From the NCBI GenBank assembly GCA_021157965.1, contig JAGGVO010000061.1, positions 1 to 45,578 on the forward strand: a DNA stretch of 45,578 nucleotides, written 5' to 3'. The position numbers and the translations under genes were made by a program. Shown piece by piece: positions 16,081 to 45,578 of this stretch. Each line of letters opens with the position of its first letter. Position 1 is the stretch's first letter. This DNA comes from Candidatus Neomarinimicrobiota bacterium. Lineage in GTDB: Bacteria > Fidelibacterota > Fidelibacteria > Fidelibacterales > Fidelibacteraceae. Under the pieces are notes generated by a model. The model did not search any database. It was not told where the DNA came from and was given only the letters and a program-made list of their open reading frames with translations.

Positions 16081-17154
16081 ATGTCACATCATCAAAACTA
16101 TGATCCAAAGTTAAGGGAAGTCATCCATAAACTTCCAAAAGCAGAGCTCCATTGTCATCTGGACGGTTCACTCAGGCCGGATACCCTCTTCGATCTCGCA
16201 AAACAAAATAATGTCAAAATTCCCTATCAGAATAAAGATAAGCTGATGGAGTTTCTTCACTTTGAAAAGGGAGAATCCCTGGAAATTTATCTTAAAAAAT
16301 TCGATTTGACACTGAGTGTGCTCCAGACACCCGACGCTCTTGAAAGAACCGCCTATGAGTTGGCTGAAGACGCTTCCGGGGAAAATATCAAATGGCTTGA
16401 AGTCCGGTATTCACCCATCCTGCATGTTAATAATGATATGGGAACTGTGGATAACCTGGAAGCTGTCATCCGTGGACTGAAAAAGGCAGAGATGGATTTT
16501 GGAATCCGCGGCGGCGTGATTATCTGCGGCATGAGGAGTATCAGTCCGGATATCTCCTATAATCTCGCAGAACTGGCTGTTGCTTATAAAAACAGGGGTG
16601 TTGTAGGTTTTGACCTCGCCGGACCTGAAGAGAATTATCCTGCCAAAGATCATGAAAATGCGTTCAGACTGGTTTTGAAAAACAATATTAACATTACCAT
16701 CCATGCCGGTGAAGCGTACGGACCGGAAAGTATTCATCAGGCCGTCCACTATTGCGGGGCGCACAGGATCGGACACGGAACCCGCCTTGCGGAAGATGGG
16801 GACTTGCTCAACTATATCAACGATCATCGCATTTGTCTGGAAATCTGTCTTACCAGTAATGTTCAGACAGGCTCGGTTAAAAGCCTGAAAAAACACCCTT
16901 TCAAGTATTTCAAGGATTACGGGCTCCGTTTGTGCCTGAATACGGATAATCGATTAATTTCAAATACAACCCTCACCGATGAACTCTGCCTGGCCTACCA
17001 TACGTTCAATCTGAAATTGAAAGATATTAAAGACGTACTGATTGACGGCTTTAAAAGCTCTTTTATGCATCACAGGGATCGGGTCCGGCTCATCCGGGAA
17101 GTGTCTCCGGTCATGGATGAGATAATCCGGGATTTTGACGCTCAAAACTCCTGA
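16081..17154 (+). CDS. add: Adenosine deaminase
   Basis: The 357-residue enzyme converts adenosine to inosine in purine salvage. Zinc ligands are His24 and His26 in AELHCHLDGSLRPDTLFD, with HAGEAYGPESI and HRIGHGTRLAEDG giving the catalytic His/Glu region and LNTDNRLISNTTLTDE the C-terminal Asp motif common in bacterial enzymes. AAGGA lies 5 bases before the ATG, inside the end of the OPT gene. The gene is followed 18 bases later by the complex I-like membrane cluster, so the upstream operon may read through. Purine genes guaB-purA-guaA lie elsewhere in the window. Confidence 0.94.
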   Translation: MSHHQNYDPKLREVIHKLPKAELHCHLDGSLRPDTLFDLAKQNNVKIPYQNKDKLMEFLHFEKGESLEIYLKKFDLTLSVLQTPDALERTAYELAEDASGENIKWLEVRYSPILHVNNDMGTVDNLEAVIRGLKKAEMDFGIRGGVIICGMRSISPDISYNLAELAVAYKNRGVVGFDLAGPEENYPAKDHENAFRLVLKNNINITIHAGEAYGPESIHQAVHYCGAHRIGHGTRLAEDGDLLNYINDHRICLEICLTSNVQTGSVKSLKKHPFKYFKDYGLRLCLNTDNRLISNTTLTDELCLAYHTFNLKLKDIKDVLIDGFKSSFMHHRDRVRLIREVSPVMDEIIRDFDAQNS

Positions 17155-29542: not shown

Positions 29543-31033
29543 TCAATATTTATCGGATTTATAATCTGAAGAGTCATTCGGCATATAGATATCATGAACC
29601 TTCCCTTCCCGGATGGATAATGCCGAGACAATTTCAAGCTCTGCATTTTCATGAAACTCCCGAATATTGGTCACGCCGCAGGAAGACATGGATGCTTTGA
29701 TTTTAGAGAGAGTTTCAGGCAGATTGTCCCGGAGTTTGCCGGCATACTGGACAAAGCCTTCTACTCCTTCAACAAACTTCATCTGGTAATATCGGACTGA
29801 TTTCCACTCGCGGGCCCTGGCAGATCCTTCACCCCAATAGGGCTTCATAATCCGGTTATTGAGCTGAATCTTTTCCGTAGGGGATTCCTCCATCCGGGCA
29901 AAATAGCGTCCCATCATCACGTAATCCGCACCCAATGCAAGGGCAATGGTAATATCTTTAGAATCCACAATCCCTCCGTCTGCAACAACAGGAATGTATT
30001 TTCCGGTCTCTTCAAAATACCGATTCCTTTCGTTAACGACATCAATAATTGCCGATGCAAGTCCGCGCCCCGTTCCTTTTTGTTCCTGAGTAATGCAAAT
30101 GGATCCTCCGCCCATACCGACTTTCACGGCCCGTGCGCCGCAATCCACCAGAAATCGAAAGCCTTTCCCCGTGATAATATTGCCTCCGATCACCGGAAGA
30201 TAGGGATAATATGCCGTGATCCATTCAAGGGTTCGCTTTTGATAGACTGAAAAACCATCAGATGAATCCACTGTCAAAATATCAGCACCGGCTTCTTCCA
30301 ATGCCGGGACACGCTCTTTGTAATCGTGGGTATTAACCGCCGCTCCAGTAAGCAGGCGTTTCCGGTCATCCAGCAATTCCATGGGATAATTCATGTGATT
30401 GCGGATATCTTTCCGGAAAACAAGATTTTTCAGCCGATCATCCTCATTAACAATGGGAAGAACACTCTGATGACTTTCTCTCAGCAGTTTATTGGCTTCT
30501 TTGATATCAGAAATATTGACTCCAACAACCAGCTGATCCCTGGGAATCATTCTCTCGGAAACTTTCAGTTGAGCATGATGGGTTCCGCTGTAATCATTTT
30601 TCGTTAGAATACCCAACAGTTTATGGTTGACATCAACAACGGGAAATGTATTGAAGCCTTTACTTTTACTGATTTCGAAAACATCTCCAATCAGCATATC
30701 CGGGTGGACATAGAAAGGATCCACAAAACCGGCCTTATAACTTTTAATATCCCGGATCATGGCCGCTTCATTCTCTATCGTTTGTGAACAAAATATAAAA
30801 GCCAGTCCACCCAGCCTGGCCAGTTCAATTCCCATTTCCACACCGGAAACACTCTGCATGGCAGCTGAAACAACCGGAATATTGAGCTTGAATTTTTGCT
30901 CACCCTCAGGAGTCCACGCCAACGTCGTTTCAAGGGATATCTGATCAATGGAAGTTTCATCTGTTGTGTATCCCGGTAAAAGACGGTATTCCATGAGGGT
31001 CCGGGAAGGTTCATTAATGATTTTTTTTGCCAT
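29543..31033 (-). CDS. guaB: IMP dehydrogenase, Tritrichomonas-type divergent form
   Basis: This 496-residue enzyme oxidises IMP to XMP with NAD. The catalytic Cys313 lies in GGGSICITQEQKGTGRG, the DSSDGFS motif near 256 binds IMP, and a tandem CBS pair occupies about 110-215. The C-terminal half is unusual: ESPTEKIQLNNRIMKPYWGE and GSARAREW replace the common YRGMGS flap and instead resemble, from memory, the divergent enzyme of Tritrichomonas foetus and some bacteria. AAGGAG precedes the ATG by about 5 bases, and an inverted repeat lies 38 bases upstream. It is the first gene of guaB-purA-guaA. Confidence 0.94.
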   Translation of the reverse strand: MAKKIINEPSRTLMEYRLLPGYTTDETSIDQISLETTLAWTPEGEQKFKLNIPVVSAAMQSVSGVEMGIELARLGGLAFIFCSQTIENEAAMIRDIKSYKAGFVDPFYVHPDMLIGDVFEISKSKGFNTFPVVDVNHKLLGILTKNDYSGTHHAQLKVSERMIPRDQLVVGVNISDIKEANKLLRESHQSVLPIVNEDDRLKNLVFRKDIRNHMNYPMELLDDRKRLLTGAAVNTHDYKERVPALEEAGADILTVDSSDGFSVYQKRTLEWITAYYPYLPVIGGNIITGKGFRFLVDCGARAVKVGMGGGSICITQEQKGTGRGLASAIIDVVNERNRYFEETGKYIPVVADGGIVDSKDITIALALGADYVMMGRYFARMEESPTEKIQLNNRIMKPYWGEGSARAREWKSVRYYQMKFVEGVEGFVQYAGKLRDNLPETLSKIKASMSSCGVTNIREFHENAELEIVSALSIREGKVHDIYMPNDSSDYKSDKY

Positions 31034-31314: not shown

Positions 31315-32406
31315 TCAACGCGATAAAAAGATTACTAACAGTGGAATAATAAAGAAAAAGATGAGCAAAAAGAGAATGGATATATATCGATTATTATAAA
31401 CAAGTCCTGAAAATTTCTTTGCGCCCCAAAGTGGAATATTGCGTAAAAACGGAATAGAAAGAATTAGTATAGCTCCGATTACATTGAACATAAAGTGGGC
31501 AAAGGCAACGATCAATGCCTCAGTTTTACCAGTGACAAGAGAAGCCAGAATTGCCGTGATCGTTGTGCCGATATTAGCCCCGATGGTATAGGGAAAAACC
31601 TGATACAGAGTCAGAATACCCGAACCTACAATAGGTACAATTAATGACGTGGTAATGGAACTGCTCTGGACAAGAACAGTCAGGATCAAACCAAAGGCAA
31701 GGGCAGTGAATGTAGATTTAAAAATAACTTTATCGAAAAAGTTTTCTGCCTTGTTAATGAATACACTTTTCAAGACCACAACGATATACCGGAGTGCAAT
31801 GAAGAGAAGCACAAGAGCCATAATAACAATGAGAACAGGATTTTTATTTAAAAACTCCGCAAGCCAGGATGCAACAGGCCCGACAACCAATTTAAGTGGA
31901 CTTTTAAATGTGACTCCGGATGACCCGACAAAAATATCTGCCAGTTTTTTAGATAAAACACCCAGTATGTTGAAGGATATTTGCAGCGGAAAAAGGATCA
32001 GGACCGCAAGGATATTGAAAAAATCATGGACAACAGCTGCTGAGAAGGCATCCCGGAATTCGTTGCGTCTGGATAAGGATCCCATTGAAACAATAATATT
32101 GGTTACGGATGTTCCGATATTGGATCCCATCACAATGGGAATGGCTCCTGAAATAGTCAGCGTCCCTCCCGCCACCATCCCGACAACTATGGATGTAACC
32201 GTAGAAGAACTCTGTACCATGCTGGTAACAAGAATCCCAATAAAAAGCCCGACAAATGGTGAAGATGTGGTTTCCATCAACGCATGGGCAAACTCTTTGC
32301 CGAACAACTTAAAACCCAAACCAATCAATTCAATACTGAGAAGAAAAATGTATAACAGGCCAAGAATCTGTAATGTTTTAATCAGTCCGCTTTTGTATTT
32401 GTTCAT
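31315..32406 (-). CDS. Na/Pi cotransporter family protein
   Basis: This 363-residue inner-membrane protein is a NptA/SLC34-type sodium-phosphate cotransporter. Its two inverted halves each have the family signature: MVQSSSTVTS (QSSS at 65-68) and LVQSSSITTS (247-250), each followed by a helix with an IGANIGTT or MGSNIGTS motif. It lacks the C-terminal PhoU-like domain of longer bacterial members. GGGAG lies just before the ATG. It stands alone, divergent from the secretion cluster, with repeated TTAAGR boxes 95-145 bases upstream of its start. Confidence 0.92.
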   Translation of the reverse strand: MNKYKSGLIKTLQILGLLYIFLLSIELIGLGFKLFGKEFAHALMETTSSPFVGLFIGILVTSMVQSSSTVTSIVVGMVAGGTLTISGAIPIVMGSNIGTSVTNIIVSMGSLSRRNEFRDAFSAAVVHDFFNILAVLILFPLQISFNILGVLSKKLADIFVGSSGVTFKSPLKLVVGPVASWLAEFLNKNPVLIVIMALVLLFIALRYIVVVLKSVFINKAENFFDKVIFKSTFTALAFGLILTVLVQSSSITTSLIVPIVGSGILTLYQVFPYTIGANIGTTITAILASLVTGKTEALIVAFAHFMFNVIGAILILSIPFLRNIPLWGAKKFSGLVYNNRYISILFLLIFFFIIPLLVIFLSR

Positions 32407-32835: not shown

Positions 32836-35028
32836 TTGAAAAAAGCGATTTTCAGAAGAATTCACTTTCTGTATGTCATTATAGCGGTTTTTATCTTAAT
32901 CATTCAATCAAGTGCCTATGGACAGCGACGCAGTGGACCTGTTTCGGATATTCAAATGAAAAAAAGCAGCGCCGGCGTTGCCGATTATGTCCATTATACG
33001 ACGGTGGGACAATTGGGTTTAACGGTCACAAATTTTGGAATCATTGGCGAAGGATATAACAATCCGGATCAACCAAGTTTCATGTACAAACAATATCCCG
33101 ACAATATTAAGGAACAAGTGGAACACATGAGCTATGGCGGTTTATGGATCGGTGGAATTGTTGGAGATGTGAAACGGGTTTCAACGGCCATTGTGGACGG
33201 TGTATTTGATTACGGATCAGAAGGATTTGAATTTACAGATAACGGTGATTCAATTTATGTTCGTTCCTCTATTACTACCAGCCGCTACTATTCTCCCGAT
33301 GCCGTCAGTCATCAGGATTTTATCACCCGGTTTCATGATATGAGCCCGGTTGTTGAACACACACCCATGAATTTAGAAGTTAATTTACAGACTCATGCCT
33401 GGAATTATAAGTTTGCAGAAGCTTTTGTGATTCTGGATTATTTTATTGTCAATAAGGGTACCGATGTAATTAAAGACGTTTATGTTGGCTTGTGGGCAGA
33501 TGCTGCTGTCGGAAACATGAACTATACAAGTATTTATGAAAATGGCGGCGGTTGGAGCTGGTATGATAATCAGAATGGATTTGATCAATCTGATTTTGAC
33601 CCTATGCCGGACGATAATGTCCCGGGCTTTCCCCGGAATATAGCTTACCAGTTCGATGCGGACGGAGATAACGGATATGCCGAAAGTTATGTGGGATTTT
33701 CCTGTCTCGGATCGGAAACGGTTCCAAGGGAATATTGGGATACTCAGTATAATCAATGGCCGTGGCAGGCAGCATCCAATATGACCTATCCGGATTACTT
33801 TATGCCGGTTGATGACAATCAGCGCTATGATAAGATGAAAACGTCGGTTCCCAAAGGTGATCCGAGTACTTATCCCGATCTCTACACGGAGGATGGATAC
33901 CCCAGTCAGCCCAACAGTTGGATGATACTCATCTCAGCCGGTCCATTCGGGACACATCCGGCAAATGAAGACAGCACAGCCTGGAATTTTTATCCCGGAG
34001 ACACATTAAATGTAGTATATGCTGTAGGGTGTGGGCGTTGGGCAACTAATGAATTAAAAGATTCACCGGAGAGGCGTGAACTCCTTCGGGCAAACCTGGA
34101 CTGGGCCCAGAAGGCCTATAACGGCGAAGACAGCAACGGAAACGGCGTTCTGGATGATTGGGAAGATCAGGATGGGGATGGGGTACTGGATCGCTATATA
34201 CTCCCTTCTCCCCCACCCTCTCCCCGCCTTCATATTGAAGTGGAAGCCGGTAAAGCTATTTTGTACTGGGATAATTCTCCTGAAGATTTCGAGGACCCTA
34301 TCAGCCGGAAAAAGGACTTTGAAGGATACCGGATTTACGCACGCCGTAAAACAAGTGGCATTGATAAACAGTGGACACTTTTAGGACAAATTGACAAGAA
34401 AAATGATATTGGATTCAACAGTGGATTGGATGTCCTCCGGATAAAAGATGAATATGGAAATCCGTCCTATACCGTTTTTGGTCCGGACACATTTTACTAT
34501 AAGTTTGAAAATACTGGCATACTTAACGGGTGGCCGGATAAAAATGTATTTTCCGTGACCTCCTTTGATACCGGTGATCCTGCCACGGGACTCGTATCTC
34601 TGGAGTCCAGCACACTGGAAAACCGTACGGCGGTTGTTGCCGGGCAGTCTCCGGCTAATCCGGAAGAAGAATGGATAACGGGAGTTTATCCCAATCCCTA
34701 TAATGCTCATGCAGCCTGGGACGGTCTGGGAGTTCGTGAGCGGATGATATGGTTCTATGGCTTACCCCGTAAAGCAACTATCAGGATATTTACCATTGCC
34801 GGTGAATTGATTAAAACCATTGACCATGATGCCGATACATATAACGGATCAGATATTATGTCCCTGAAAGAACTTTCCACATCAAATACCGTTTATGCCG
34901 GTGGAGAACACGCATGGGATCTTATCACCGACTATGATCAGGCGACGGCAACCGGACTTTATCTTTATTCCATCGAAGATAAAGAGTCCGGTAAAAAACA
35001 AACCGGCCGCTTTTTGATCATTAAGTAG
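32836..35028 (+). CDS. Secreted protein with T9SS/FlgD-like C-terminal domain
   Basis: The 730-residue protein starts at TTG 32836, 5 bases after GGGAG, with a signal peptide (MKKAIFRRIHFLYVIIAVFI, cleavage near AYG-QRR). The body is Tyr/Asp/Gly-rich and I do not recognise a catalytic domain. Around residues 430-445 an Asp-rich stretch (DSNGNGVLDDWEDQDGDGVL) looks like a calcium-binding EF-hand/dockerin-like or thrombospondin-3 repeat, followed by a fibronectin-like part (KAILYWDNSPEDFEDP). The last 110 residues have VYPNPYNAHAAWDG, KATIRIFTIAGELIKTI and TGLYLYSIEDKESG, the pattern of type IX sorting domains. It is likely exported to the cell surface. Confidence 0.75.
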   Translation: MKKAIFRRIHFLYVIIAVFILIIQSSAYGQRRSGPVSDIQMKKSSAGVADYVHYTTVGQLGLTVTNFGIIGEGYNNPDQPSFMYKQYPDNIKEQVEHMSYGGLWIGGIVGDVKRVSTAIVDGVFDYGSEGFEFTDNGDSIYVRSSITTSRYYSPDAVSHQDFITRFHDMSPVVEHTPMNLEVNLQTHAWNYKFAEAFVILDYFIVNKGTDVIKDVYVGLWADAAVGNMNYTSIYENGGGWSWYDNQNGFDQSDFDPMPDDNVPGFPRNIAYQFDADGDNGYAESYVGFSCLGSETVPREYWDTQYNQWPWQAASNMTYPDYFMPVDDNQRYDKMKTSVPKGDPSTYPDLYTEDGYPSQPNSWMILISAGPFGTHPANEDSTAWNFYPGDTLNVVYAVGCGRWATNELKDSPERRELLRANLDWAQKAYNGEDSNGNGVLDDWEDQDGDGVLDRYILPSPPPSPRLHIEVEAGKAILYWDNSPEDFEDPISRKKDFEGYRIYARRKTSGIDKQWTLLGQIDKKNDIGFNSGLDVLRIKDEYGNPSYTVFGPDTFYYKFENTGILNGWPDKNVFSVTSFDTGDPATGLVSLESSTLENRTAVVAGQSPANPEEEWITGVYPNPYNAHAAWDGLGVRERMIWFYGLPRKATIRIFTIAGELIKTIDHDADTYNGSDIMSLKELSTSNTVYAGGEHAWDLITDYDQATATGLYLYSIEDKESGKKQTGRFLIIK

Positions 35029-35054
35029 AGAACAATAAACAAAGGAGATGTGAT

Positions 35055-37700
35055 ATGAAAAAACTGCTAACCGTTGTACTGATAGCGGTCCTGGTAACAA
35101 CTGTTTTTGCCCAGATTACGCCTATCAGGGATATTCAGTACACAACGGATGCCAGTGGTGATTCTCCCTTGAACGGACAAACTGTAACCATATCAGGTAT
35201 TGTAACGGCAGAGCCCTATGCCTATGGGAACAAATATTTTTTCGTTCAGGATGATAATGCGCCCTGGTCCGGAATTTTTGTGTATGACAGCGCTCCCGAT
35301 GATATTTTGATTGCCGAGGGAGACAGTGTGACATTAACAGGTACTGTCGAGGAAAAATATGGAATGACTCGTTTTACCGATCTCACATCAATTGTCATTG
35401 AAGAAAAAGGTGTTTTCGGTATTGAACCAATCGTCGTCACTGCAGATCAGATAGCCACAGGAGCTGCCGAATCAGAATCCTATGAGGCAGTGCTTGTCCA
35501 GATCAGGGATGTTGCCGTGGCAAATCCCGATGAAGGATACGGTGAGTGGTCTGTAACAGATGGTACGGACACTGTAATGGTTGATAATGGAAATTACTAT
35601 TTCTGGCCCGCAGAATATGATTCGATTAAATCCATTACCGGCCCCCTCAACTATGATTACAACAACCGTAAAATTGCTCCCCGAATTGCCTATGATATTG
35701 TAGAAGGTGTGAAAAAAGGGCAGGATAAAATATATACCCGCATTCAGAGAATTCAGCAGGTTCGGTATTCGGACCTGGTAAAAGCAGGAGAAGATGCCGA
35801 ATCTGATGTATCTTATCTGGTGAGAGAATCCGGTGACAGTTCACTGTTGACCGTTCGGGGAATAGTTACCATGCCTACTGGTATCAGTTATGCCGGAGAC
35901 GGGATTAAATTTATTCTTTCGGATCCTCACGGCGGTCCCTGGAGTGCCATCCTTTCATATAATGCTGATTCAACCATCTATCCCGTCCTTTTCCCCGGTG
36001 ATGAGATTGAAATGACCGGATATGTGGGTGAATACACCACAGGTGATGCGAACATGACGGAATTCTGGCTTGTTGGGGATATTGAAATCATGAATTTCGA
36101 ACAGCCTCTTCCGGATACTCCTCTTGTGAAAACAGGAGACCTGCGGTGGCCCACGACCGCCGAACAATGGGGAAATGTCTTTGTAAAAGTTGAAAACTGT
36201 GTCGTTACAAACAATGATCTCCAATATGAAGTTATGGAAATTAATGATGGATCCGGGGCTGCATTGGTTGATGATGATTCAGACAGCCTGAGAAACTATA
36301 TAGTACCTCCTGTTGGAACGCAGCTGCAGAGTGTTGTTGGATGGATTTATCATCACTACGGCAGTTATGCAGATTCCACAACGTATAAAATTGAACCACT
36401 TTATGAACGGGATATTGTAACCGGTGAAGGTCCTGCACTTCTGACCGATGCTTCAAGAACACCTCAACTTCCCTCCTCTTCTGATGCCGTAACGGTTCAG
36501 GTGAAAGCCGTCACGAACCGGTCAATAACCGATGCCAAAGTCTTTTATCGCGTGGACAATGCCGGCTCTTATACGGAAGTTATCATGTATGATCAGGGCG
36601 ACAAGGTTTTTGCCGGAGAAATTCCAGCTCAGGCAGAGGGTGCCTTCGTTGATTATTATTTCTATGTTGAGGATGAAAAGGGCGGTGTGTCTACATTACC
36701 GTCAGATATAAATCTCAAAAACTTCTCTTATGTGGTGACAGATGGTAATCCTGTGATCAGGGATATCCAGTTTACACATTGGGCCAATGGTGAATCACCA
36801 TTCCACGGCTCTACCGTGACTGTCACCGGATATATCACTGCCGGACAGGGATATGTTACGCATTTTACCAATAGTGGTGTCAGTGCCCTGCCCATGGCCG
36901 ATGCCAGTGGTCCATGGAACGGCATTTTCATTCTTGCCACACCTGAACAGCTTGCCGGACTCCAGTATGGCCAGGAAGTCACTGTAACCGGCAGAGTTGA
37001 TGATAACTACGATGATTACTGGAGATGGCAGAAAAACACCTATATTGTCGCTGATTCAATCGTTGCAGGCGATGTTTCAGAACCACCCGCTCCCGCAAGA
37101 GTTTCTATCTCGGATATTGCTGCCGATCACGAATCTTTCGAAGGTGTTGAAGTAAATCTGGCCGATTTTTCACAAATCGCTTCCATCAATCAGTATGATA
37201 TCACCATAACAAATGGAAGTGACAGCATATTGCTCGATGACGATTGTGTTCCTTCCGAAATCTTTACCATTGTCAGCAATGAATATGCTGTCATCGGCGG
37301 CACTGACACGGTAGGTATCGGTGATTACCTTGATATCGTAAAAGGTGTTTACCAGTTCACCTATGGCACCTTTAAGATTGAAGTCCGGGACGGAACGGAT
37401 CTTGGGCTGACATCAGCAACCGAGCCTGTAGTACCAACCACATATACCTTGTATCAGAATTATCCCAATCCCTTTAATCCCTCTACCACTATCTCATTCT
37501 CACTCCCTGAACAAACTCTGGTATCAATTCAGATTTACAATGTCAGAGGACAGTTAATTCATACGCTGACAAACAGTGTTTATGCACCCGGACAACATAC
37601 TTTAACATGGAAACCGATCAATCTCAGTAGCGGTATTTATCTGTACAAGATCAATGCCGGTGATTTCAACGCTGTAAAAAAGATGACGTATCTTAAATAG
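35055..37700 (+). CDS. Secreted OB-fold repeat protein with T9SS type A sorting domain
   Basis: The 881-residue protein has a signal peptide (MKKLLTVVLIAVLVTTVFA) and AAAGGAG 7 bases before the ATG. It contains OB-fold-like modules of the kind found in YhcR/DUF5689 and at the N-terminus of extracellular nucleases: IRDIQYTTDASGDSPLNGQT followed by VTISGIVTA near residue 25, a second VRGIVTMPTG module near 275 and a third IRDIQFTHWANGESPFHGST near 570. No nuclease active site is visible. A linker Ig-like part precedes the C-terminal sorting domain (about 806-881) with LYQNYPNPFNPSTTISFSLP and GIYLYKI. Known role of such tails: export by the type IX system and surface anchoring. A strong terminator follows. 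Confidence 0.85.
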   Translation: MKKLLTVVLIAVLVTTVFAQITPIRDIQYTTDASGDSPLNGQTVTISGIVTAEPYAYGNKYFFVQDDNAPWSGIFVYDSAPDDILIAEGDSVTLTGTVEEKYGMTRFTDLTSIVIEEKGVFGIEPIVVTADQIATGAAESESYEAVLVQIRDVAVANPDEGYGEWSVTDGTDTVMVDNGNYYFWPAEYDSIKSITGPLNYDYNNRKIAPRIAYDIVEGVKKGQDKIYTRIQRIQQVRYSDLVKAGEDAESDVSYLVRESGDSSLLTVRGIVTMPTGISYAGDGIKFILSDPHGGPWSAILSYNADSTIYPVLFPGDEIEMTGYVGEYTTGDANMTEFWLVGDIEIMNFEQPLPDTPLVKTGDLRWPTTAEQWGNVFVKVENCVVTNNDLQYEVMEINDGSGAALVDDDSDSLRNYIVPPVGTQLQSVVGWIYHHYGSYADSTTYKIEPLYERDIVTGEGPALLTDASRTPQLPSSSDAVTVQVKAVTNRSITDAKVFYRVDNAGSYTEVIMYDQGDKVFAGEIPAQAEGAFVDYYFYVEDEKGGVSTLPSDINLKNFSYVVTDGNPVIRDIQFTHWANGESPFHGSTVTVTGYITAGQGYVTHFTNSGVSALPMADASGPWNGIFILATPEQLAGLQYGQEVTVTGRVDDNYDDYWRWQKNTYIVADSIVAGDVSEPPAPARVSISDIAADHESFEGVEVNLADFSQIASINQYDITITNGSDSILLDDDCVPSEIFTIVSNEYAVIGGTDTVGIGDYLDIVKGVYQFTYGTFKIEVRDGTDLGLTSATEPVVPTTYTLYQNYPNPFNPSTTISFSLPEQTLVSIQIYNVRGQLIHTLTNSVYAPGQHTLTWKPINLSSGIYLYKINAGDFNAVKKMTYLK

Positions 37701-37710
37701 AAATCTTGTT

Positions 37711-37740
37711 TAAAAGGGGGGATTCAACTCCCCCCTTTTA
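37711..37740 (+). terminator. Strong rho-independent terminator
   Basis: TAAAAGGGGGG (37711-37721) and CCCCCCTTTTA (37730-37740) form an 11-bp perfect stem with an 8-base loop, ending in TTTTATTC. It lies 11 bases after the OB-fold protein and separates the first two secretion genes from the lipoprotein gene. Confidence 0.9.
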
Positions 37741-37873
37741 TTCATTCATGAAATGACAGAAAGCATGAAATATCAAATCATCACGGGGAAATCCGGAAAA
37801 TTGGCGACACCATGGCTTTCATGCAACCCTGATTTTGATGGGGTGAGAATCAGATCAATCATGAGAGGTATCC

Positions 37874-39376
37874 ATGAGAAATAGAGTATTTGTTGGAATT
37901 TTGTTTTTATTAACACTTCTCATGTGGAATTGTGAAAATCCATTTACGCCGAATATCCCGGAAACAACCTATACCAATCTGGCCCCCGAAACGCATATAT
38001 CCATAATTTATCATCCGGATACGGTATTAACTGTCGGTGATTACTGGATTAATGAAGGAGACACAATTTGGATTGAAGAAAACGACAGTCTAATCCTCGG
38101 ACTCGATACAACAGTCAGTGTCAAAGAGGTATTCTGGTGGGGTGATGACCCGGATGGTGAAGTAATCGGATATTATTATCAATGGAGTTTTATGCCTGAA
38201 CGTGTATTCACACAACAGGAATCCGATACATTTTATCTGCCTTTACGAAGCAAATTTGATATATATAGCATAAAAGTCTGGGCTGTTGATAATGACAGTT
38301 TGGAAGACAGTACACCGGCTGCCGCAAGTTTTCCTGTTTACAATTCCCCGCCCGTTCTGGAATGGAAATTGAACTCCCTCCCTTCTGTTGCAACTACCCC
38401 GAATGTTGTCCATCAGTCTTTTACACACCACTCTTTTTTCTGGGATGTTTACGATCTGGACGGTTTGGAAACAATCACAGCCATTTATTGGGCTTTGGAT
38501 GATACAAGCACATGGCACCGGCTGGATGGGGATCAGCGCTCCATTTTCCTTGAGAATTTGGAACCAGGAACTCACAGAATCTTTTTTCAGGCACAGGACA
38601 TTGCAGGAGCAAAATCGAATGTTATTTCCTTTCCCGATCCCGAAGATGATGAGATTCCAAATACGTGGAAAGTGATTGCACCTGTCGGCGATTATCTGAT
38701 TGTCAATGACTATGCAAGTGACCAGCTTAATTATACTCATCAGAATTTTTATAAAGAAATATTTGATAAGATCATTGGTGCGGATCATTATTCTGTCTGG
38801 GAAATCGGGGATAATGTCAACAATGCCCATAATTCAATCCCTTACAGCACGCAGGATATAGAATACAATTTGAGTTATTTTAAGAATGTTTTTTGGTTTA
38901 CATTCAGGGGGGAAAACTCCATCAACCAGTCTGCCCTGGCTCTGACACGATTTGTCGCTGATGGTGGTATTCTCTTTATGAATAATGCCATGAAAGGCGG
39001 TACACTGGCAGATACAACCTGGAGTTTCACCAGTATTGATACTATGTATTTTTTTAGTAAAACGGGGCGGGTTCTGCCGGGGACGAAAATCGATGCATTC
39101 TGGGGAAATTCAGAGCTGGATTCAACATTGGCTTTATCACTGGGGTCTACCCTGGCCGACCGTTTATGGGCTATAGAACCCGGGGAAAATGCTGTCATAC
39201 GATACCGGTTTGAGGATGCCGGTCCGAACGGGCGATCCTATAATGGCGCACCCGGAATTATGACCGAAACCCGAATAAACGATGGTATTTGCTATTATAT
39301 GACCATCCCCCTTTACTACTGTAATGGAAATGATAATGTAGATAGACTTTTTAAACACGTATTTGAATTGGAATGA
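37874..39376 (+). CDS. Lipoprotein with Ig-like and GATase-like domains
   Basis: The 500-residue protein begins with a lipoprotein signal; the lipobox LLMWNC gives lipidated Cys20. A first Ig/fibronectin-like region (about 40-160) contains WWGDDPDGEVIGYYYQW, a second near 170-260 contains WDVYDLDGLETITAIYWALD and ends with FFQAQDIAGAKS. The C-terminal part (about 270-490) looks like a Rossmann or class I amidotransferase-like fold (YLIVNDYASDQ, then ALTRFVADGGILFMNN), without visible catalytic residues. GAGG precedes the ATG. The stop overlaps the TonB receptor start by 4 bases, so they are made together. Function unknown; a surface partner of the receptor is plausible. Confidence 0.75.
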   Translation: MRNRVFVGILFLLTLLMWNCENPFTPNIPETTYTNLAPETHISIIYHPDTVLTVGDYWINEGDTIWIEENDSLILGLDTTVSVKEVFWWGDDPDGEVIGYYYQWSFMPERVFTQQESDTFYLPLRSKFDIYSIKVWAVDNDSLEDSTPAAASFPVYNSPPVLEWKLNSLPSVATTPNVVHQSFTHHSFFWDVYDLDGLETITAIYWALDDTSTWHRLDGDQRSIFLENLEPGTHRIFFQAQDIAGAKSNVISFPDPEDDEIPNTWKVIAPVGDYLIVNDYASDQLNYTHQNFYKEIFDKIIGADHYSVWEIGDNVNNAHNSIPYSTQDIEYNLSYFKNVFWFTFRGENSINQSALALTRFVADGGILFMNNAMKGGTLADTTWSFTSIDTMYFFSKTGRVLPGTKIDAFWGNSELDSTLALSLGSTLADRLWAIEPGENAVIRYRFEDAGPNGRSYNGAPGIMTETRINDGICYYMTIPLYYCNGNDNVDRLFKHVFELE

Positions 39377-42078
39377 TGAAACATACAATAATAATTAAAA
39401 TACTTCTCTTCATTGTCCTTAGTACATCTTTGGTATATGCTGCGACTATCCGCGGAACAGTTACAGATGCAGATACGGGTGAACCCCTGCCGGGAGCAAA
39501 TATCATTTTAAAAGGGACATATTACGGTGCCGCATCTGATGTGGATGGGACGTATGTGATTCCGAATGTATCTTCCGGAAGTTACGATCTTGAGGTCTCC
39601 ATGATGGGTTATACCGTTCAGATTCACGGCGGCATTGATGTTTCTAAACGGGAAACACGCGTTCTGAATATTCAACTGAAACCAACCGTTTTGGCTTTAG
39701 GACAAGAGGTGACGGTGATTGGTGAACGTCCGATTATTGACGCAGATGCCACCGGTTCTTCTGTCAATGTAAGCGCCAGCGATCTGGAAAATTCCATAGT
39801 GGAGAGTGTCAGCGATATTGTGGCCCAGCAAACCGGTGTATCGAAAAGCGGAGATAATGAAATTCACATCCGGGGAGGGCGTGTTGATGAAGGACAATTT
39901 ATTGTGGACGGACTTTCTATTAAAGATCCGTTGACTGGAGCCACAAACAGTCTGTATGTAAATCCAAATGCCATCGAAGAATTGGAATTCATTACCGGAG
40001 GGTTTAACGCAGAATATGGGCAAGCGATGTCCGGTATTATTGACATCAAATTAAAGGAAGGCGCCAAACAACTGGAAGGTTCCGCAAGATATAAGACAGA
40101 TAAAATTTTATCTGATAATTTCAACACAGACAATATTGAGTTTACTCTGGGGGGCCCGCTGTTTAGGAACAATGAGAAAATTCCGGGAAATTTCTCCTAT
40201 TTTCTGAGTGGTTATCTTTATCTGACAGACACTTATTTACCTACAGCAGGTCCTTTGTATCCTTATCGTGAATGGACCGATATTTTTGTCAGCCGGGAGG
40301 AAAATAACTTCAGCGGCATGGTCAAACTGAGCTGGTTGATTACCCCAAAACATAAATTTGCCGTTTCTTATAACCATAGTGCCAATGTCGACAGGGACTA
40401 TGATTATGCCTATAAAGAAATCATGGATAATTACCCCACTACAACCCGGGAATCACAGGTTGTTAATATTATTTGGACACATACGCTGAATTCTCATCTT
40501 TTTTACAATATGAACCTGGGATATTTTTATACCGGAAAGCACGATGCGGTTAAAAATAAACACTGGTCCGAATACAATGAAGTCCTTGATTTGGATCCCA
40601 CCTCTTATACTCCTTTGGATCCTTTTGGAAATCTTCGTGTCTACAATGGTGATGAGTTCTGGGATCATGGTGATGCACCGTATTGGTATGATTACTTCAG
40701 TAAAAACTATTCTTTTGAAGCAGATATTACATGGCAACCCAATACACGGCATACAGTCAAAGGGGGATACAATCATCGTAAAACTGATATGCAGGTCATA
40801 GATATCTATAAACCTTGGGCAGGCAGTGGTTCAGGTTTGGGTGAATCCTTCGATTATTATACCGTATCACCATCAGATGGAGCCTTTTATATCCAGGATA
40901 AAATTACGTTTGAAGGTATGATTGCCAATATAGGACTGCGCTATGATTACTGGATTATCGGGGAATATGTGGAAGATATTGTGAATAATCCCGATATCCT
41001 TACCATTACCCCTGAAGGGAAAAAACGCTTTATAAATGAAACGTTCAATCTTCTGGGGCGGAGAGCCAAGGGTCACTTAAGCCCGCGTCTGGGAATCAGC
41101 CATCCGGTTACTGATAACGATGTCCTGTATTTTAATTATGGTCATTTCAGTCAATTACCAACCTACAACTATGTTTATGCCAACCTCACAAGCCGTTCGG
41201 AAAATCCCTATTCCCTCATAGGGAATCCCAATTTGAATCCTAAGACAACAGTCGCCTATGAATTGGGCATTAAACATAAATTTTCAAAATCCACGGCTAT
41301 CGAATTCAAAGCTTATTATAAAGATATGTTCGATTACGAAACCTCACAACGGATTACCAGTTTTAATCCCCTTGTGGGGAATTACAGCATGCTGATCTAC
41401 ATTAATGCTGATTATGCCCGGTCCAGGGGTATAGAAATCACTTTTCGCCGCCTGTACGGACGGTATTTTTCCGGTGATGCATCCTTTTCATACGCTATCA
41501 GTACAGGAAAATCATCAAGGCCGGATGATAATTTGCTGATTGAAGCAGGCATGCTTTCTCAAAAACCCCTTTCAGAAAATTACCTTTCGTGGGATGAACC
41601 CTTTCGACTTCGTGGAAATCTTCGGTTTAACATGTTTGAAGACACACCTCCCAGGCTTTTCGGTATGAGAATCCCCAACAATTGGAAACTGAATATCCAT
41701 TTTGATGCCCAGTCAGGCCAGCGATATACACCCAGTGTTGCCACAGACACTATTCAGGTTGAAGATGGAACCTGGATTTTTCTGGGTACCTCCATGTCGG
41801 ATAATCCATACGGAGCTATCGCTGATCCTTTTGTAACAATCGATGTTAAATTTACCAAGGAATATTATTTTAAATCCTTCCGATATGGATTTTACATTGA
41901 TGCTCAAAATGTGTTCAACCATAAAATTCCCAGAAGAATAAACCCCTTTACCGGCAAGCCCTATGATCCCGGTGAAATTATATCCTATGTCTACTTAGGC
42001 GGCAGAAATCCGAATTATGATCCATCACGGTATTATGTTCCCAGACAGGTGTCTTTGGGTGCGTTTTTAATGTTTTAA
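39373..42078 (+). CDS. TonB-dependent receptor with carboxypeptidase-like N-domain
   Basis: This 901-residue outer-membrane receptor has a signal peptide ending near LVYA, a CarboxypepD_reg-like domain (TIRGTVTDADTGEPLPGANI, then VPNVSSG-like IPNVSSGSYDL), a plug domain (about 125-220: SDIVAQQTGVSKSGDNEIHI and RGGRVDEGQFIVDG) and a long beta-barrel ending in Phe (LGAFLMF), as barrel proteins do. Barrel strands such as GMIANIGLRYDYWII and AKGHLSPRLGISHPVTDNDV are typical of FCB receptors. The substrate is unknown. The ATG at 39373 overlaps the lipoprotein stop; a second ATG is at 39376. The pseudogene at 11888 is a separate, decayed member of this kind. Confidence 0.93.
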   Translation: MMKHTIIIKILLFIVLSTSLVYAATIRGTVTDADTGEPLPGANIILKGTYYGAASDVDGTYVIPNVSSGSYDLEVSMMGYTVQIHGGIDVSKRETRVLNIQLKPTVLALGQEVTVIGERPIIDADATGSSVNVSASDLENSIVESVSDIVAQQTGVSKSGDNEIHIRGGRVDEGQFIVDGLSIKDPLTGATNSLYVNPNAIEELEFITGGFNAEYGQAMSGIIDIKLKEGAKQLEGSARYKTDKILSDNFNTDNIEFTLGGPLFRNNEKIPGNFSYFLSGYLYLTDTYLPTAGPLYPYREWTDIFVSREENNFSGMVKLSWLITPKHKFAVSYNHSANVDRDYDYAYKEIMDNYPTTTRESQVVNIIWTHTLNSHLFYNMNLGYFYTGKHDAVKNKHWSEYNEVLDLDPTSYTPLDPFGNLRVYNGDEFWDHGDAPYWYDYFSKNYSFEADITWQPNTRHTVKGGYNHRKTDMQVIDIYKPWAGSGSGLGESFDYYTVSPSDGAFYIQDKITFEGMIANIGLRYDYWIIGEYVEDIVNNPDILTITPEGKKRFINETFNLLGRRAKGHLSPRLGISHPVTDNDVLYFNYGHFSQLPTYNYVYANLTSRSENPYSLIGNPNLNPKTTVAYELGIKHKFSKSTAIEFKAYYKDMFDYETSQRITSFNPLVGNYSMLIYINADYARSRGIEITFRRLYGRYFSGDASFSYAISTGKSSRPDDNLLIEAGMLSQKPLSENYLSWDEPFRLRGNLRFNMFEDTPPRLFGMRIPNNWKLNIHFDAQSGQRYTPSVATDTIQVEDGTWIFLGTSMSDNPYGAIADPFVTIDVKFTKEYYFKSFRYGFYIDAQNVFNHKIPRRINPFTGKPYDPGEIISYVYLGGRNPNYDPSRYYVPRQVSLGAFLMF

Positions 42079-42099
42079 ATCATTAGCTGACGGAATACA

Positions 42100-43086
42100 A
42101 TGAAACGAAAACATATCATATTAACACTCCTCATTCTCACAACCACACTCCATGCCGGAGGATTATTGCCTCAGCTGGGCGGACAACGTGCCGGTACATC
42201 ATCTCTGACATTCCTGAAAATAAAACCCAGTGCAAGAGCATCCGGTATGGCCGGGGCTTTTACTGCTATTGCCGGAGATGCATCAATCATACAATACAAT
42301 CCGGGAGGACTTATTCAGCTTGAAAATCCATCCGTTACGTTCAGTCATTTGGATTGGTATGCCGATATTGATTTTGAATATTTTGCCGTGAGTTATCCAT
42401 TTCGTAATTGGGCCTTAGGCTTTGAAGCAGGTACTCTTCACATGCCTGCCATGGAAGTGACTACAGAATATAAACCCTATGGTTCCGGAGAATACTTTAC
42501 CTTCACCGATTATTTTGCCGGTCTTTCCTTCTCCCGAAAAATGAGTGAACGGTTCAGTTTCGGCATTTCAGGGCGTATCGCCCGGGAAGAATACCTGAAT
42601 TTTAAAAGCACAAATATTCTCATGGACTTAGGGACCTATTATTTTACCGGTTTTAAAGACCTGAGAATTGCTGTTGCTTTTTTGAATTTCGGCCCTCCAA
42701 CGGCACCTGAAGGCACGTATGAGTATGTCAATGCCGAAGGATATACCGAGGCCCGTGAGTATGAAAAGTTTTCTCCACCCACCACTTTCCATCTGGGTTC
42801 AGCCATAACCCTTCTTGAACGTCAGGCAGTTAACTGGCTTGTATCTGCCCAATTAAACCATCCCGTTGACAATGCAGAGTATTTTGCTTTCGGCACTGAA
42901 GTAACTCTGTTAAAGACACTTGTTCTTAGAGCCGGTTTTGATACAAATAAAGATCATAATCCCCTCTCTTTTGGGTTAGGTTTTAAAGCAGAGAAATGGG
43001 GACAATCTCTGATGATTGATTACGCATACAGGGACAATGAATATTTGAACCCGACACAACAATTTCAGATATCTTACAATTTCTAG
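42100..43086 (+). CDS. PorV/PorQ-family outer-membrane protein
   Basis: The 328-residue protein has a signal peptide (MKRKHIILTLLILTTTLHAG) and the PorV/PorQ (UPF0164) signature: GTSSLTFLKIKPSARASGMA, then GAFTAIAGDASIIQYNPGGL, followed by beta-strand repeats and a C-terminal Phe (QISYNF). In the type IX system PorV is the barrel that shuttles cargo from the translocon to the surface attachment complex; other family members have less clear roles. It lies 21 bases after the TonB receptor and 8 bases before the next lipoprotein. Placement beside T9SS cargo genes supports a function with that system. Confidence 0.85.
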   Translation: MKRKHIILTLLILTTTLHAGGLLPQLGGQRAGTSSLTFLKIKPSARASGMAGAFTAIAGDASIIQYNPGGLIQLENPSVTFSHLDWYADIDFEYFAVSYPFRNWALGFEAGTLHMPAMEVTTEYKPYGSGEYFTFTDYFAGLSFSRKMSERFSFGISGRIAREEYLNFKSTNILMDLGTYYFTGFKDLRIAVAFLNFGPPTAPEGTYEYVNAEGYTEAREYEKFSPPTTFHLGSAITLLERQAVNWLVSAQLNHPVDNAEYFAFGTEVTLLKTLVLRAGFDTNKDHNPLSFGLGFKAEKWGQSLMIDYAYRDNEYLNPTQQFQISYNF

Positions 43087-43094
43087 GACGGATA

Positions 43095-44459
43095 ATGGGA
43101 CACATAAAATTGATATTACTGTTATTCACGCTTTTTTTCCTGACTTCATGTATTGACACCATGGAGTTGCCTACCGCCGAGAATGATAATCCGACAGGAA
43201 TATATGAAGATAAAGATGCATTTATAGAAATAACTCCCCGGTGGAATTTCAGTGATTTGGGTATCAGCTCACTTTCCGACATGGAAACTACGGAAGATGG
43301 CCATCTTTATCTTGCGGATCCAGTTAGCCATCTCATATCTGTTGTCCGTCCAAGTGGAAAACGGGAATCGGGTGTATATGAACCACTTCAGCAACTTACA
43401 TTTAAGGGTTCCCCCCTTTCACCAGTTTCAGTTTCACTGGACAATCGATTTATTCTTTATTTCACGAATAGAAGCGACACTGTCTATGCCTGGTTTCAAT
43501 ATTTGAATATGGCAGGTGTCGAGGGTATTGTCACATCCTTTGATTATCGTGTGGAGGGTGAAATTATTACAGAGGATCCATACATCGGTGAGTTTACAGA
43601 GGGATACAATCGTCTTGACCATAGCGAAGTTCTTAATACGGACCCCGCTCTGATTGACTCTCTTTTAGGTATAGTCCCTGTTTATGCATCGCGTGACAAA
43701 TCCAACCGTGAAGCCACAATTGATCCCATTGATGGAAGTGTTTTAGGTAATAATCCTGTCTATGCATCTTTACCAAAATCATTTATAGCTGTAGCTGACG
43801 AGAGCGTGGAATCCCGCCATATTGCTGTCATGGATTCATTAAACAATAGACTGATAAATTTTAAATTAATCCCAACCTATTTGTTGAAATTAAAAAATGG
43901 TTCCTTTGTCTGGCATTTAAAAGGGGTCTATGATAATCTTTTGGTTTCTGAAGGAACAGGTGCCGGGACAATCTCGGAACCGAACAGCTTATATAGTGAT
44001 GATAACGGTAATTTATTATATACACAGTATGGCGATTACTTTGGTTTTCATAAACTTTGTACGGGCACGTATACAACAGCTTTTACTTATGGTACAGATG
44101 AAATCATGGATTTAGGTCGCTTTAAATCTCCCATGGATGCCGTAGTGGGTGACGACGGTGCCATATTTATCCTCGATTCAACCATAAATGCCGTCTTGAA
44201 ATTCAGTCCGCAAGGTAATTTTCAAAAATTTGTTGCAATCCGGGAGGAATGGATCAAACAGACAGATACAACCTGGGTGGACGGTGAAATGGTTCTCAAG
44301 GATACTTTGATCCAGGTATCATATCATGATCTTCTCGCTTCTCCAAAGGCACTGAGTTTTCATGATGAAGTTTTGTATGTTTCAGATAACGGGAATCAAA
44401 GAATTTTGCGGTTTACCCGAACCAAAGCGGGTATCGAAGATCCCAATCCTTTTGATTAG
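43095..44459 (+). CDS. Beta-propeller-like lipoprotein
   Basis: The 454-residue protein has a lipoprotein signal with lipobox FLTSC (Cys19). The body shows repeated blade-like strands of the NHL/six-bladed propeller type: LSDMETTEDGHLYLADPVSH, then SPVSVSLDNRFILYFTNRSD, PNSLYSDDNGNLLYTQYGDY, SPMDAVVGDDGAIFILDSTI and SPKALSFHDEVLYVSDNGNQ. Such lipoproteins usually act as binding partners on the outer membrane. AGGA lies 6 bases before the ATG. It is the last gene of the operon and is followed by a strong palindromic terminator. Confidence 0.75.
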   Translation: MGHIKLILLLFTLFFLTSCIDTMELPTAENDNPTGIYEDKDAFIEITPRWNFSDLGISSLSDMETTEDGHLYLADPVSHLISVVRPSGKRESGVYEPLQQLTFKGSPLSPVSVSLDNRFILYFTNRSDTVYAWFQYLNMAGVEGIVTSFDYRVEGEIITEDPYIGEFTEGYNRLDHSEVLNTDPALIDSLLGIVPVYASRDKSNREATIDPIDGSVLGNNPVYASLPKSFIAVADESVESRHIAVMDSLNNRLINFKLIPTYLLKLKNGSFVWHLKGVYDNLLVSEGTGAGTISEPNSLYSDDNGNLLYTQYGDYFGFHKLCTGTYTTAFTYGTDEIMDLGRFKSPMDAVVGDDGAIFILDSTINAVLKFSPQGNFQKFVAIREEWIKQTDTTWVDGEMVLKDTLIQVSYHDLLASPKALSFHDEVLYVSDNGNQRILRFTRTKAGIEDPNPFD

Positions 44460-44534: not shown

Positions 44535-45578
44535 TTAAGGGTTAACTGTAATTGTTTGGGTTGTTGTGCCTACCTGGTCATCGTCGTCAATAACCTCAAG
44601 CCGAATTGTTTTATTTCCTGCAGCATCATAAACATGCTTTTTTGTAGCATTGGATTCATATCCCGTATCCCAGCTACCATCATCTTCCCAATCCCACCTG
44701 TAGCGAAGAGTATACTCATAATTAGCAGTATCAAATGATTCTGAAGCGTCAACAGTCAACGTATCACCTACATTGATTGTTGTAGAGCTTACTGAAAAGA
44801 TAGCAGTAGGAGCGTAATAAACAGTAGTGGATACATTTATTGTAGCCGTTGCCTCATCAACCAATCCCTGCGAATCTATTACAATCAACTTAACGACATA
44901 GGATCCGGCACTTTCGAATTTATATGTTGCAGTATACACAGATAGCGTATCTGTATCCCAATTACCGTCATTATCCCAATCCCAAATGTAAAGCAGGTTT
45001 TGACCATCCTCCAAATCGACTGAATTTGATGCATCAAATTCAAAAATAGTACCGATATATCCGGATTCCGGAGTTACCGTAAATCCTGCAGTCGGTGCCT
45101 GATTTTCATATTCGGTGATCGTGTAACTGATTGTGGCATCATCGGTCAATCCTCCACTGTCCTTAACACGTGCTGTTACCGGATAAATACCTGCAATGTT
45201 GAATTGATGTTCCATGAGTTGGCTGACAGGTTGATATGGTGTTTCAAAAGTCCCGTCACCGTCCCAATCCCAGCGAACCTGTAAATTAGATGCATTATCT
45301 TCGGCATCATAAGAATCTGACGCATCAAAGGTGAAGACTGTTTCGGTTGTTCCGGTGCTGTAATTGGCAGTAAACACCGCCACAGGAGCCGTATTCACTG
45401 CGGCCACATAAATATCCTTCGTCGCCTGAGCCGTGGCTCCCTCGGTGTCCCGAACCTCCAGGGTCACTGTGTAATTACCTGCCGTGGTAAATGTATGCGT
45501 GAGAGTCTTTGTGGTGCTGTAACCCGTATCCCAGGATCCGTCACTCTCCCAGTCCCAACGCACTTCAAGAGAGGCCAA
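44535..45578 (-). CDS. PKD-repeat surface protein, C-terminal part
   Basis: This minus-strand frame runs off the right edge, so at least 347 residues of the C-terminal end are visible; the first codon at the edge is TTG inside an open frame and is probably not the start. It is made of about four PKD-type beta-sandwich repeats of 85-90 residues, each with an Asp-rich turn such as WDWDGDGTFET, WDWDNDGNWDT or WDWEDDGSWDT and an ending like YTVTLEVRDTEG. No sorting domain or anchor follows the last repeat, which ends in TITVNP. PKD repeats are found in surface and secreted proteins, often for binding or spacing. Confidence 0.85.
   Translation of the reverse strand: MASLEVRWDWESDGSWDTGYSTTKTLTHTFTTAGNYTVTLEVRDTEGATAQATKDIYVAAVNTAPVAVFTANYSTGTTETVFTFDASDSYDAEDNASNLQVRWDWDGDGTFETPYQPVSQLMEHQFNIAGIYPVTARVKDSGGLTDDATISYTITEYENQAPTAGFTVTPESGYIGTIFEFDASNSVDLEDGQNLLYIWDWDNDGNWDTDTLSVYTATYKFESAGSYVVKLIVIDSQGLVDEATATINVSTTVYYAPTAIFSVSSTTINVGDTLTVDASESFDTANYEYTLRYRWDWEDDGSWDTGYESNATKKHVYDAAGNKTIRLEVIDDDDQVGTTTQTITVNP

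Follow-up and report, generated by a model that had tools for sequence, protein, structure and literature searches.

Six co-travelling genes for type IX secretion cargo, a TonB-dependent receptor and a PorV-family barrel in Neomarinimicrobiota: a candidate outer-membrane capture-and-import complex

The window analysed here, 45,578 nt of DNA from Candidatus Neomarinimicrobiota bacterium (assembly GCA_021157965.1, contig JAGGVO010000061.1, forward strand, positions 1 to 45,578; GTDB lineage Bacteria; Fidelibacterota; Fidelibacteria; Fidelibacterales; Fidelibacteraceae), carries within 32836–44459 six open reading frames (ORFs), P1 to P6, all on the + strand and coding for 730, 881, 500, 901, 328, and 454 residues. 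A first-pass annotation had read this region as a six-gene surface set combining the type IX secretion system (T9SS) and TonB, and the ORFs are present where it placed them; the locus raises the question of whether these genes form one machine and, if so, what that machine handles. The six genes co-travel through several little-studied bacterial groups. Judged from sequence and predicted structure, they may constitute a single outer-membrane capture-and-import complex, the ligand of which would most likely be extracellular nucleic acid; we hold this reading tentatively, giving it somewhat less than an even chance. The features of the set are as follows.

32836..35028, + strand: P1, 730 residues, TTG start; super-beta-sandwich-like N-terminal region, Fn3-like part, and PorZ-like C-terminal domain
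35055..37700, + strand: P2, 881 residues; three domain pairs, Ig domain, and T9SS type A tail
35142..35720, + strand: P2 domain pair A, residues 30–222; first domain an OB fold
35817..36428, + strand: P2 domain pair B, residues 255–458
36429..36740, + strand: P2 Ig-like domain, residues 459–562; resembles the Porphyromonas gingivalis PPAD domain
36747..37424, + strand: P2 domain pair C, residues 565–790
37452..37697, + strand: P2 T9SS type A sorting domain, residues 800–881
37712..37739, + strand: GC-rich hairpin, 12 nt past the P2 stop codon, between the cargo and membrane genes
37874..39376, + strand: P3, 500-residue lipoprotein of no known family
39373..42078, + strand: P4, 901-residue TonB-dependent receptor; N-terminal CarboxypepD_reg, plug, and barrel
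42100..43086, + strand: P5, 328-residue PorV/PorQ-family barrel
43095..44459, + strand: P6, 454-residue NHL-repeat (propeller-type) lipoprotein

P1 and P2 are separated by 26 nt, P2 and P3 by 173 nt, P4 and P5 by 21 nt, and P5 and P6 by 8 nt, and P3 and P4 overlap by 4 nt. A promoter scan performed at about chance level (41 found, 34.3 expected, standard deviation 7.5).

Lack of conservation as a unit had been named beforehand as a possible refutation, and the relatives show the opposite. Searching the genome collection with P4 yielded 48 loci, of which 42 have the set's own receptor and six (L051–L056; L, G, C, and f label loci, genomes, contigs, and families) a related triad that was excluded from the tally; another 40 stretches, taken from Neomarinimicrobiota genomes, were added, and gene order was tallied with profile hidden Markov models. 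Among loci uncut by a contig end, the complete six-gene order is present in 21 of 23 named loci and 19 of 24 Neomarinimicrobiota loci; three genomes (L022/L147, L024/L145, L028/L140) are counted in both order lists, and once in the hairpin count given below. P3 stands directly beside P4 wherever this could be tallied (38/38 named, 39/39 Neomarinimicrobiota), and P5 does so in 38 of 39 loci of each list. P4 is present, mostly as a single copy, in 97 of 199 relatives; across 61 genomes, presence agrees with that of P4 in 60 for P3 and 58 for P1. The set is thus not a chance assembly, because it is conserved as a unit. Receptors from loci titled Neomarinimicrobiota share about 50% identity with those from loci titled KSB1 or Deferribacteres, and this distance, together with the fixed company of the receptor, points to a shared function, one that is not named by the family libraries searched. 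A tree of 30 receptors needs one change for its 17 rows labelled Neomarinimicrobiota (Fidelibacterota) when unlabelled rows are disregarded, and ten rows without a label (titled KSB1 or "bacterium") cluster with the two Deferribacteres rows at 100/100; this topology is compatible with an old vertical descent of the set.

The link to type IX secretion extends beyond the locus. A search of the genome for T9SS core genes, proposed in the first-pass annotation, found PorU (693.9 bits, cut-off 420), away from the set, and SprA (617.9 bits in the main stretch, cut-off 200). In 39 good genomes, PorU exceeds its cut-off in all 25 with the set and in 9 of 14 without (p 0.003); p values here and below overstate the evidence because genomes share ancestry, a caution that counts against the proposed function. 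The same 2.3 Mb genome contains ten further PorV/Q-family genes besides P5. Nine of these follow a TonB receptor gene and a P1-like gene on the same strand, sometimes with one gene between (loci L176–L183 and L197; contigs C41, C47, C16, C42, C36, C23, C57, and C4); in one of the nine the receptor is cut by the contig start, and the tenth gene, on contig C12, has no adjacent receptor. The P1-like proteins of these cassettes match P1 chiefly in the Fn3-like and tail regions. A PorV-family gene next to a receptor and a P1-like protein is a genome-wide pattern, and with nine more such cassettes present, the six-gene set seems to be a conserved expansion of a common cassette. This recurrence is the best support for the dedicated PorV-like carrier that had been proposed, a role P5 would hold by analogy with what is known of PorV.

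The membrane part matches its earlier description. P4 exceeds the cut-offs for the plug (PF07715, 42.8/23.9 bits) and barrel (PF00593, 87.2/27 bits) of a TonB receptor and for CarboxypepD_reg. P5 lies over the PorV/PorQ family cut-off (NF033709, 160.3/90 bits) and under the equivalog cut-offs for PorV (40.7/250) and PorQ (64.4/220; NF033710, NF033711). P6, which had been called a propeller-like lipoprotein, exceeds the NHL repeat cut-off (24.7/20 bits), and its lipobox Cys19 is invariant in 35 of 35 aligned rows. The lipobox Cys20 of P3 is likewise invariant (33/33 rows), in keeping with the lipoprotein already listed there; Pfam and NCBIfam scans returned no family for P3, and a PDB sequence search gave one match at E 0.69. 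By eye, the C-terminal domain of P3 may be GATase-like in fold.

P2 had been described as an 881-residue cargo with three OB-fold-like modules of the kind attached to extracellular nucleases but no nuclease site, and this description is borne out, with three companion domains added. Its three domain pairs are mutually homologous (hhalign probability 99.6–99.9, pair vs pair), and the predicted model has a mean pLDDT of 86.6. In pair A, the first domain resembles solved OB folds (Z 11.4 to both an AspRS chain and an OBody); its counterparts in pairs B and C match it by profile (probability 99.0 and 99.2), giving one OB domain by fold and two by profile. The second domains are alike among themselves (98.6–99.6) and unlike the first; they had no match to a solved OB fold in the structure searches made, and on our own reading of the model they have an OB-like strand order. 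Residues 46–156 align to positions 1–115 of 546 in the ExeM/NucH model (whole-protein E 3e-15; 56.1 of 300 bits, the best stretch lying on these positions), and P2 also matches PDB 9sf8 (E 4e-7); a Pfam scan of P2 returned no nuclease family, and the catalytic EEP domain of ExeM/NucH is absent. The C-terminal T9SS type A tail exceeds both cut-offs (TIGR04183 42.3/23 bits, PF18962 42.2/27), and the Ig domain resembles that of P. gingivalis PPAD (Z 14.4, root-mean-square deviation [rmsd] 2.5, 106 aligned).

Among 24 aligned P2 rows, 12 match DUF5689, which in the P2 of L036 covers one entire domain pair (residues 558–769); counts over these 24 rows include a P2-like protein of L038, off the P2 position, because the alignment contains it. 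That protein (L038:7764-10688) has OB-type repeats, a T9SS tail, and, probably, a Calcineurin-like phosphoesterase domain, and adjoins a glycerophosphodiester phosphodiesterase (GDPD) gene. Charge was considered as a test of nucleic-acid binding and rejected: the modules of P2 carry a net negative charge (median −8.5 per 100 residues, 24 rows), which decides nothing, because eight control OB segments (seven from annotated nucleases, one unannotated) are acidic too, from −3.1 to −17.3. Foldseek with the entire P2 returned a list dominated by multi-Ig proteins. Some P2 proteins are much longer, up to about 1490 residues, with extra N-terminal parts; one (L157:2282-6253) shows CxxCH by eye, and one alignment row weakly matches cytochrome c families.

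The earlier count of two T9SS-type secreted proteins stands for P2 by its tail; for P1 it is supported by the fold of the tail, with no family cut-off reached. No Pfam or NCBIfam family, the T9SS type A sorting domain among them, exceeds its cut-off in P1, and a PDB sequence search returned zero matches. The last ~125 residues have the fold of the PorZ C-terminal domain (Z 10.6, rmsd 2.5, 89 aligned); by sequence, the match of P1 to the PorZ C-terminal model is weak (18.3 bits, cut-off 260), and that model picks up 10 of 21 aligned P1 rows at E 0.001.

Between cargo and membrane genes, the hairpin listed above is conserved in position and varies in sequence among relatives. Of 50 testable P2–P3 gaps, 38 contain a stem of at least 8 bp with at least 4 GC pairs, against 1.2 expected from mononucleotide shuffles that keep single-base composition only, an excess to be read with caution since the criterion was chosen after the gaps had been inspected and near relatives are not independent. 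None of the other gaps tested contains such a stem (P1–P2, 0/17; P4–P5, 0/10; P5–P6, 0/2). To be set against a conserved regulatory role are the 12 of 50 gaps that fail the criterion and the rarity of a T-run (at least 5 T in the next 8 nt), which follows the stem in just 8 of the 38 hairpins; the element could therefore be a terminator or one that stabilises the mRNA. The hairpin probably sets expression of the cargo (P1–P2) apart from that of the membrane part (P3–P6), and such a split would be expected if cargo were made in excess of receptor.

A nuclease nearby, for which the first-pass annotation had also suggested a search, is encoded in part of the relatives. A secreted, T9SS-tailed EEP-family protein of ~580 residues lies beside the set, on the same contig, in 15 relatives of families f10, f12, f22, f23, and f28. 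Its gene is directly 5′ of P1 or one gene off in G034, G038, G089, G114, G135, and G141, and 3′ of P6 on the opposite strand in G029, G072, G109, G146, and G172; the remaining four (G104, G108, G152, G188) are assigned to the upstream place by coordinates alone, which lessens their weight. Six of these proteins were scanned: Exo_endo_phos exceeds its cut-off in five, and the lamin-tail domain and T9SS tail do so in all six. TYNLLN, GVHxKA, GDFNIYS, and SDHLPV run unbroken through the six aligned sequences, and we take TYNLLN, GVH, GDFN, and SDH to be motifs typical of the Exo_endo_phos nuclease superfamily. Across the 199 genomes, the full-length class is commoner where the set is present (29 of 97 genomes) than where it is missing (7 of 102; p 3e-5). 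G083 has a different pair of EEP genes in a row directly 5′ of P1 (L225:3321-6158); the N-terminal half of the first is 5′-nucleotidase-like by eye, without a Pfam match. A single protein joining OB and nuclease parts was sought in 61 genomes and no ExeM/NucH match exceeded the cut-off; many of the weak matches listed cover the nuclease part only or the OB part only, and G057, which lacks the set, encodes both parts in one 716-residue T9SS-tailed protein.

Nucleic acid is placed first among ligands because of the nuclease-type OB modules, the nuclease neighbours, and a result in Riemerella, where neither a DUF5689 protein nor its CarboxypepD_reg outer-membrane neighbour is dispensable for transformation (PMC8459023). 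P1 and P2 would leave the cell through the genome's T9SS, and P5 may receive or anchor their C-terminal domains beside P4. P1, P2, P3, and P6 could then form an extracellular trap above the receptor, in a role like that of SusD-type lids, with the OB modules of P2 holding the polymer. In some lineages, though not that of the window, the secreted EEP-family nuclease encoded beside the set would shorten the polymer, and TonB energy would drive the pieces through P4, the inward direction being our supposition. The first-pass reading of a surface system that captures nucleic acid or another polymer is partly supported, by unit conservation, the T9SS genes, the cassette pattern, and the nuclease neighbours of 15 relatives; its further step, the passing of fragments to the receptor, can be put only conditionally.

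Several observations weigh against this reading. The window's own genome and family (G000–G018; best six candidates per genome scored) yielded no member of the nuclease class, nor did the DNA examined around the 42 named set loci. Sixteen upstream flanks reach past P1, and nine of these hold no EEP gene, against seven that do. Seven genomes carry the class without a P4 match, and in the other 14 of the 29 set-bearing genomes the gene is on another contig or, in G083, other EEP genes are beside the set; in G135, a transposase-like gene (by eye) separates nuclease gene and P1. EEP proteins may also act on lipids or inositol phosphates. The window's P2 has no DUF5689 match in the Pfam scan, and pairwise distances follow those of P4 more weakly for P2 (r 0.61) than for P1 (r 0.94) and P6 (r 0.93). 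Gene order, by ORF calling, is broken at L040 and L044 (antisense ORFs) and at L141, L142, L161, L163, L168, and L174, and at L155 the P1–P2 pair is placed after P6.

A TonB import complex of the same kind could instead take up something other than nucleic acid, a glycan or glycoconjugate being the likeliest choice, and use P1 and the P2 Ig domain as binding modules; we regard this as a possible but rather unlikely alternative. It draws on P1 residues ~52–456, whose low-confidence model is similar to the super-beta-sandwich found in GH116 beta-glucosidase and in GH94-type enzymes (Z 16.3, rmsd 4.2, 255 aligned), a likeness that also speaks against nucleic acid, and on the P2 Ig domain, which also matches amylase N-domains and CBM56-type domains. 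The nine further cassettes likewise imply that the scaffold is not specific to nucleic acid. However, the P1 model is weak precisely in the sandwich region (mean pLDDT 64 overall, with long N-terminal stretches below 50), the non-sugar protein YidC appears in the same list of structure matches, and fold likeness by itself proves no function. Nor was a sugar-degrading gene seen to recur beside the set; neighbouring genes gave no guide to the ligand, the most widespread family outside the set occurring at 8 of 42 loci. Another alternative has the receptor working outward. In such an arrangement, P4 with P5 would help to export, release, or display P1 and P2, in the manner of Oar and PopC, or the set would be a surface assembly device resembling the dome of the beta-barrel assembly machinery (BAM). 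Precedents are the requirement of Myxococcus PopC secretion for Oar and ExbB/ExbD/TonB (PMC6434023) and the Bacteroidota BAM, in which a FadL-type barrel is joined with surface lipoproteins, one bearing a six-bladed propeller (PMC12578637); the nine cassettes that pair a receptor with a P1-like protein and PorV would fit as well. Yet the genome already has an exit (SprA) and a sortase (PorU) for T9SS cargo, and we consider the outward reading unlikely.

Natural transformation, with transport of DNA across the outer membrane for recombination as the main job of the set, appears improbable. The Riemerella DUF5689/barrel pair lends it a parallel, as does the finding that mutation of tonBA or tonBB inhibits transformation there, the tonBB effect being attributed to iron (PMC8383284), and ComEC is nominally commoner with the set (39/42 vs 13/19 of 61 genomes, p 0.02). 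The link is gone in the 39 good genomes (23/25 vs 11/14, p 0.33, for ComEC, and likewise for DprA), and 12 of 19 set-less genomes have both proteins. Moreover, neither ComEC nor DprA was seen in G029 (97% complete, with the six genes in order at L139) or in G038 (96%, with P2–P5 on one contig and P1 on another); since these two near-complete genomes retain the set, it does not serve transformation alone.

The import complex proposed here is built from parts of known kinds; what appears new is the fixed six-gene combination, the repeated receptor/T9SS protein/PorV cassette, and the conserved hairpin, none of which was found described in the literature searched, a body in which subscription papers were mostly not included. 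SusCD and RagAB are TonB receptor–lid complexes and share with the set a TonB receptor with an N-terminal beta domain and surface proteins in one gene set. Unlike them, the set offers no SusD-family match in P1, P2, P3, or P6 (Pfam, NCBIfam), so that the SusC-type receptor and SusD-type lipoprotein pairing is absent; P4 scores 91 of 368 bits on the SusC/RagA model, well under cut-off, and the outer parts are partly T9SS-tailed, with a PorV-family gene included. The T9SS attachment complex consists of PorU, PorV, PorQ, and PorZ; P5, as a PorV/Q-family barrel, and the PorZ-like tail of P1 recall it, whereas P5 falls under the PorV and PorQ cut-offs, PorU is encoded elsewhere in the genome, and the set adds a TonB receptor. 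Plasmid pRMAR01 of Rhodothermus marinus carries the same trio in the same order, a receptor (360 bits on the P4 profile; 31% identity across 78% of P4), a P1-like protein (135), and a PorV/PorQ protein (200), but lacks the OB cargo, P3, and P6 and continues with a peptidoglycan-recognition protein and a serine hydrolase. ExeM/NucH nucleases share the OB module that resembles the first domain of P2; P2 has no catalytic domain and instead three pairs, an Ig domain, and a T9SS tail, and in some relatives a separate T9SS-tailed EEP protein stands beside the set. The Riemerella pair (RA0C_RS04920/RA0C_RS04915), compared here by shared domain names, joins a DUF5689 surface protein to an adjoining carboxypeptidase-regulatory outer-membrane protein (PMC8459023); it comprises two genes rather than six, and the set is not tied to competence genes.

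Known receptor-plus-lid uptake systems use lipoprotein lids. The set seems to involve large T9SS-type proteins together with a PorV-family barrel, and to do so repeatedly, in almost uncultured phyla; were the ligand nucleic acid, this would bear on how bacteria transfer DNA or DNA fragments through the outer membrane. A broader scheme can be drawn, in which T9SS-assembled TonB import complexes, some ten per genome here, are an unrecognised class of outer-membrane machine, and the six-gene form is a deeply conserved nucleic-acid importer: the OB-rich cargo would catch DNA or RNA at the surface, a co-encoded T9SS nuclease would trim it in some lineages, and the receptor would import it for food or repair, perhaps for transformation in competent species, as a counterpart of the Riemerella pair. 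Taken whole, this scheme is speculative and, in our judgement, doubtful.

A protein family lies 3′ of P6 at L017, L025, L026, L027, L038, and L048, one of these loci being titled KSB1, and its L038 member has a GDPD domain over cut-off. Genes after P6 are similar in size and order across several families (L141, L148, L151, L157, L171); at L171, L157, and L141 the first two read as a secreted protein of ~320 residues and an outer-membrane-like protein of ~255. In the window, a Na+/Pi cotransporter gene (PF02690) at 31315–32406 is divergent to P1, with family members also at L009, L011, and L012, and an ORF at 29543–31033 is IMP dehydrogenase-like by eye. An adenosine deaminase gene (16081–17154) adjoins an OPT transporter gene (14191–16080), and a PKD-repeat protein is encoded on the minus strand at 44535–45578, extending past the window end.

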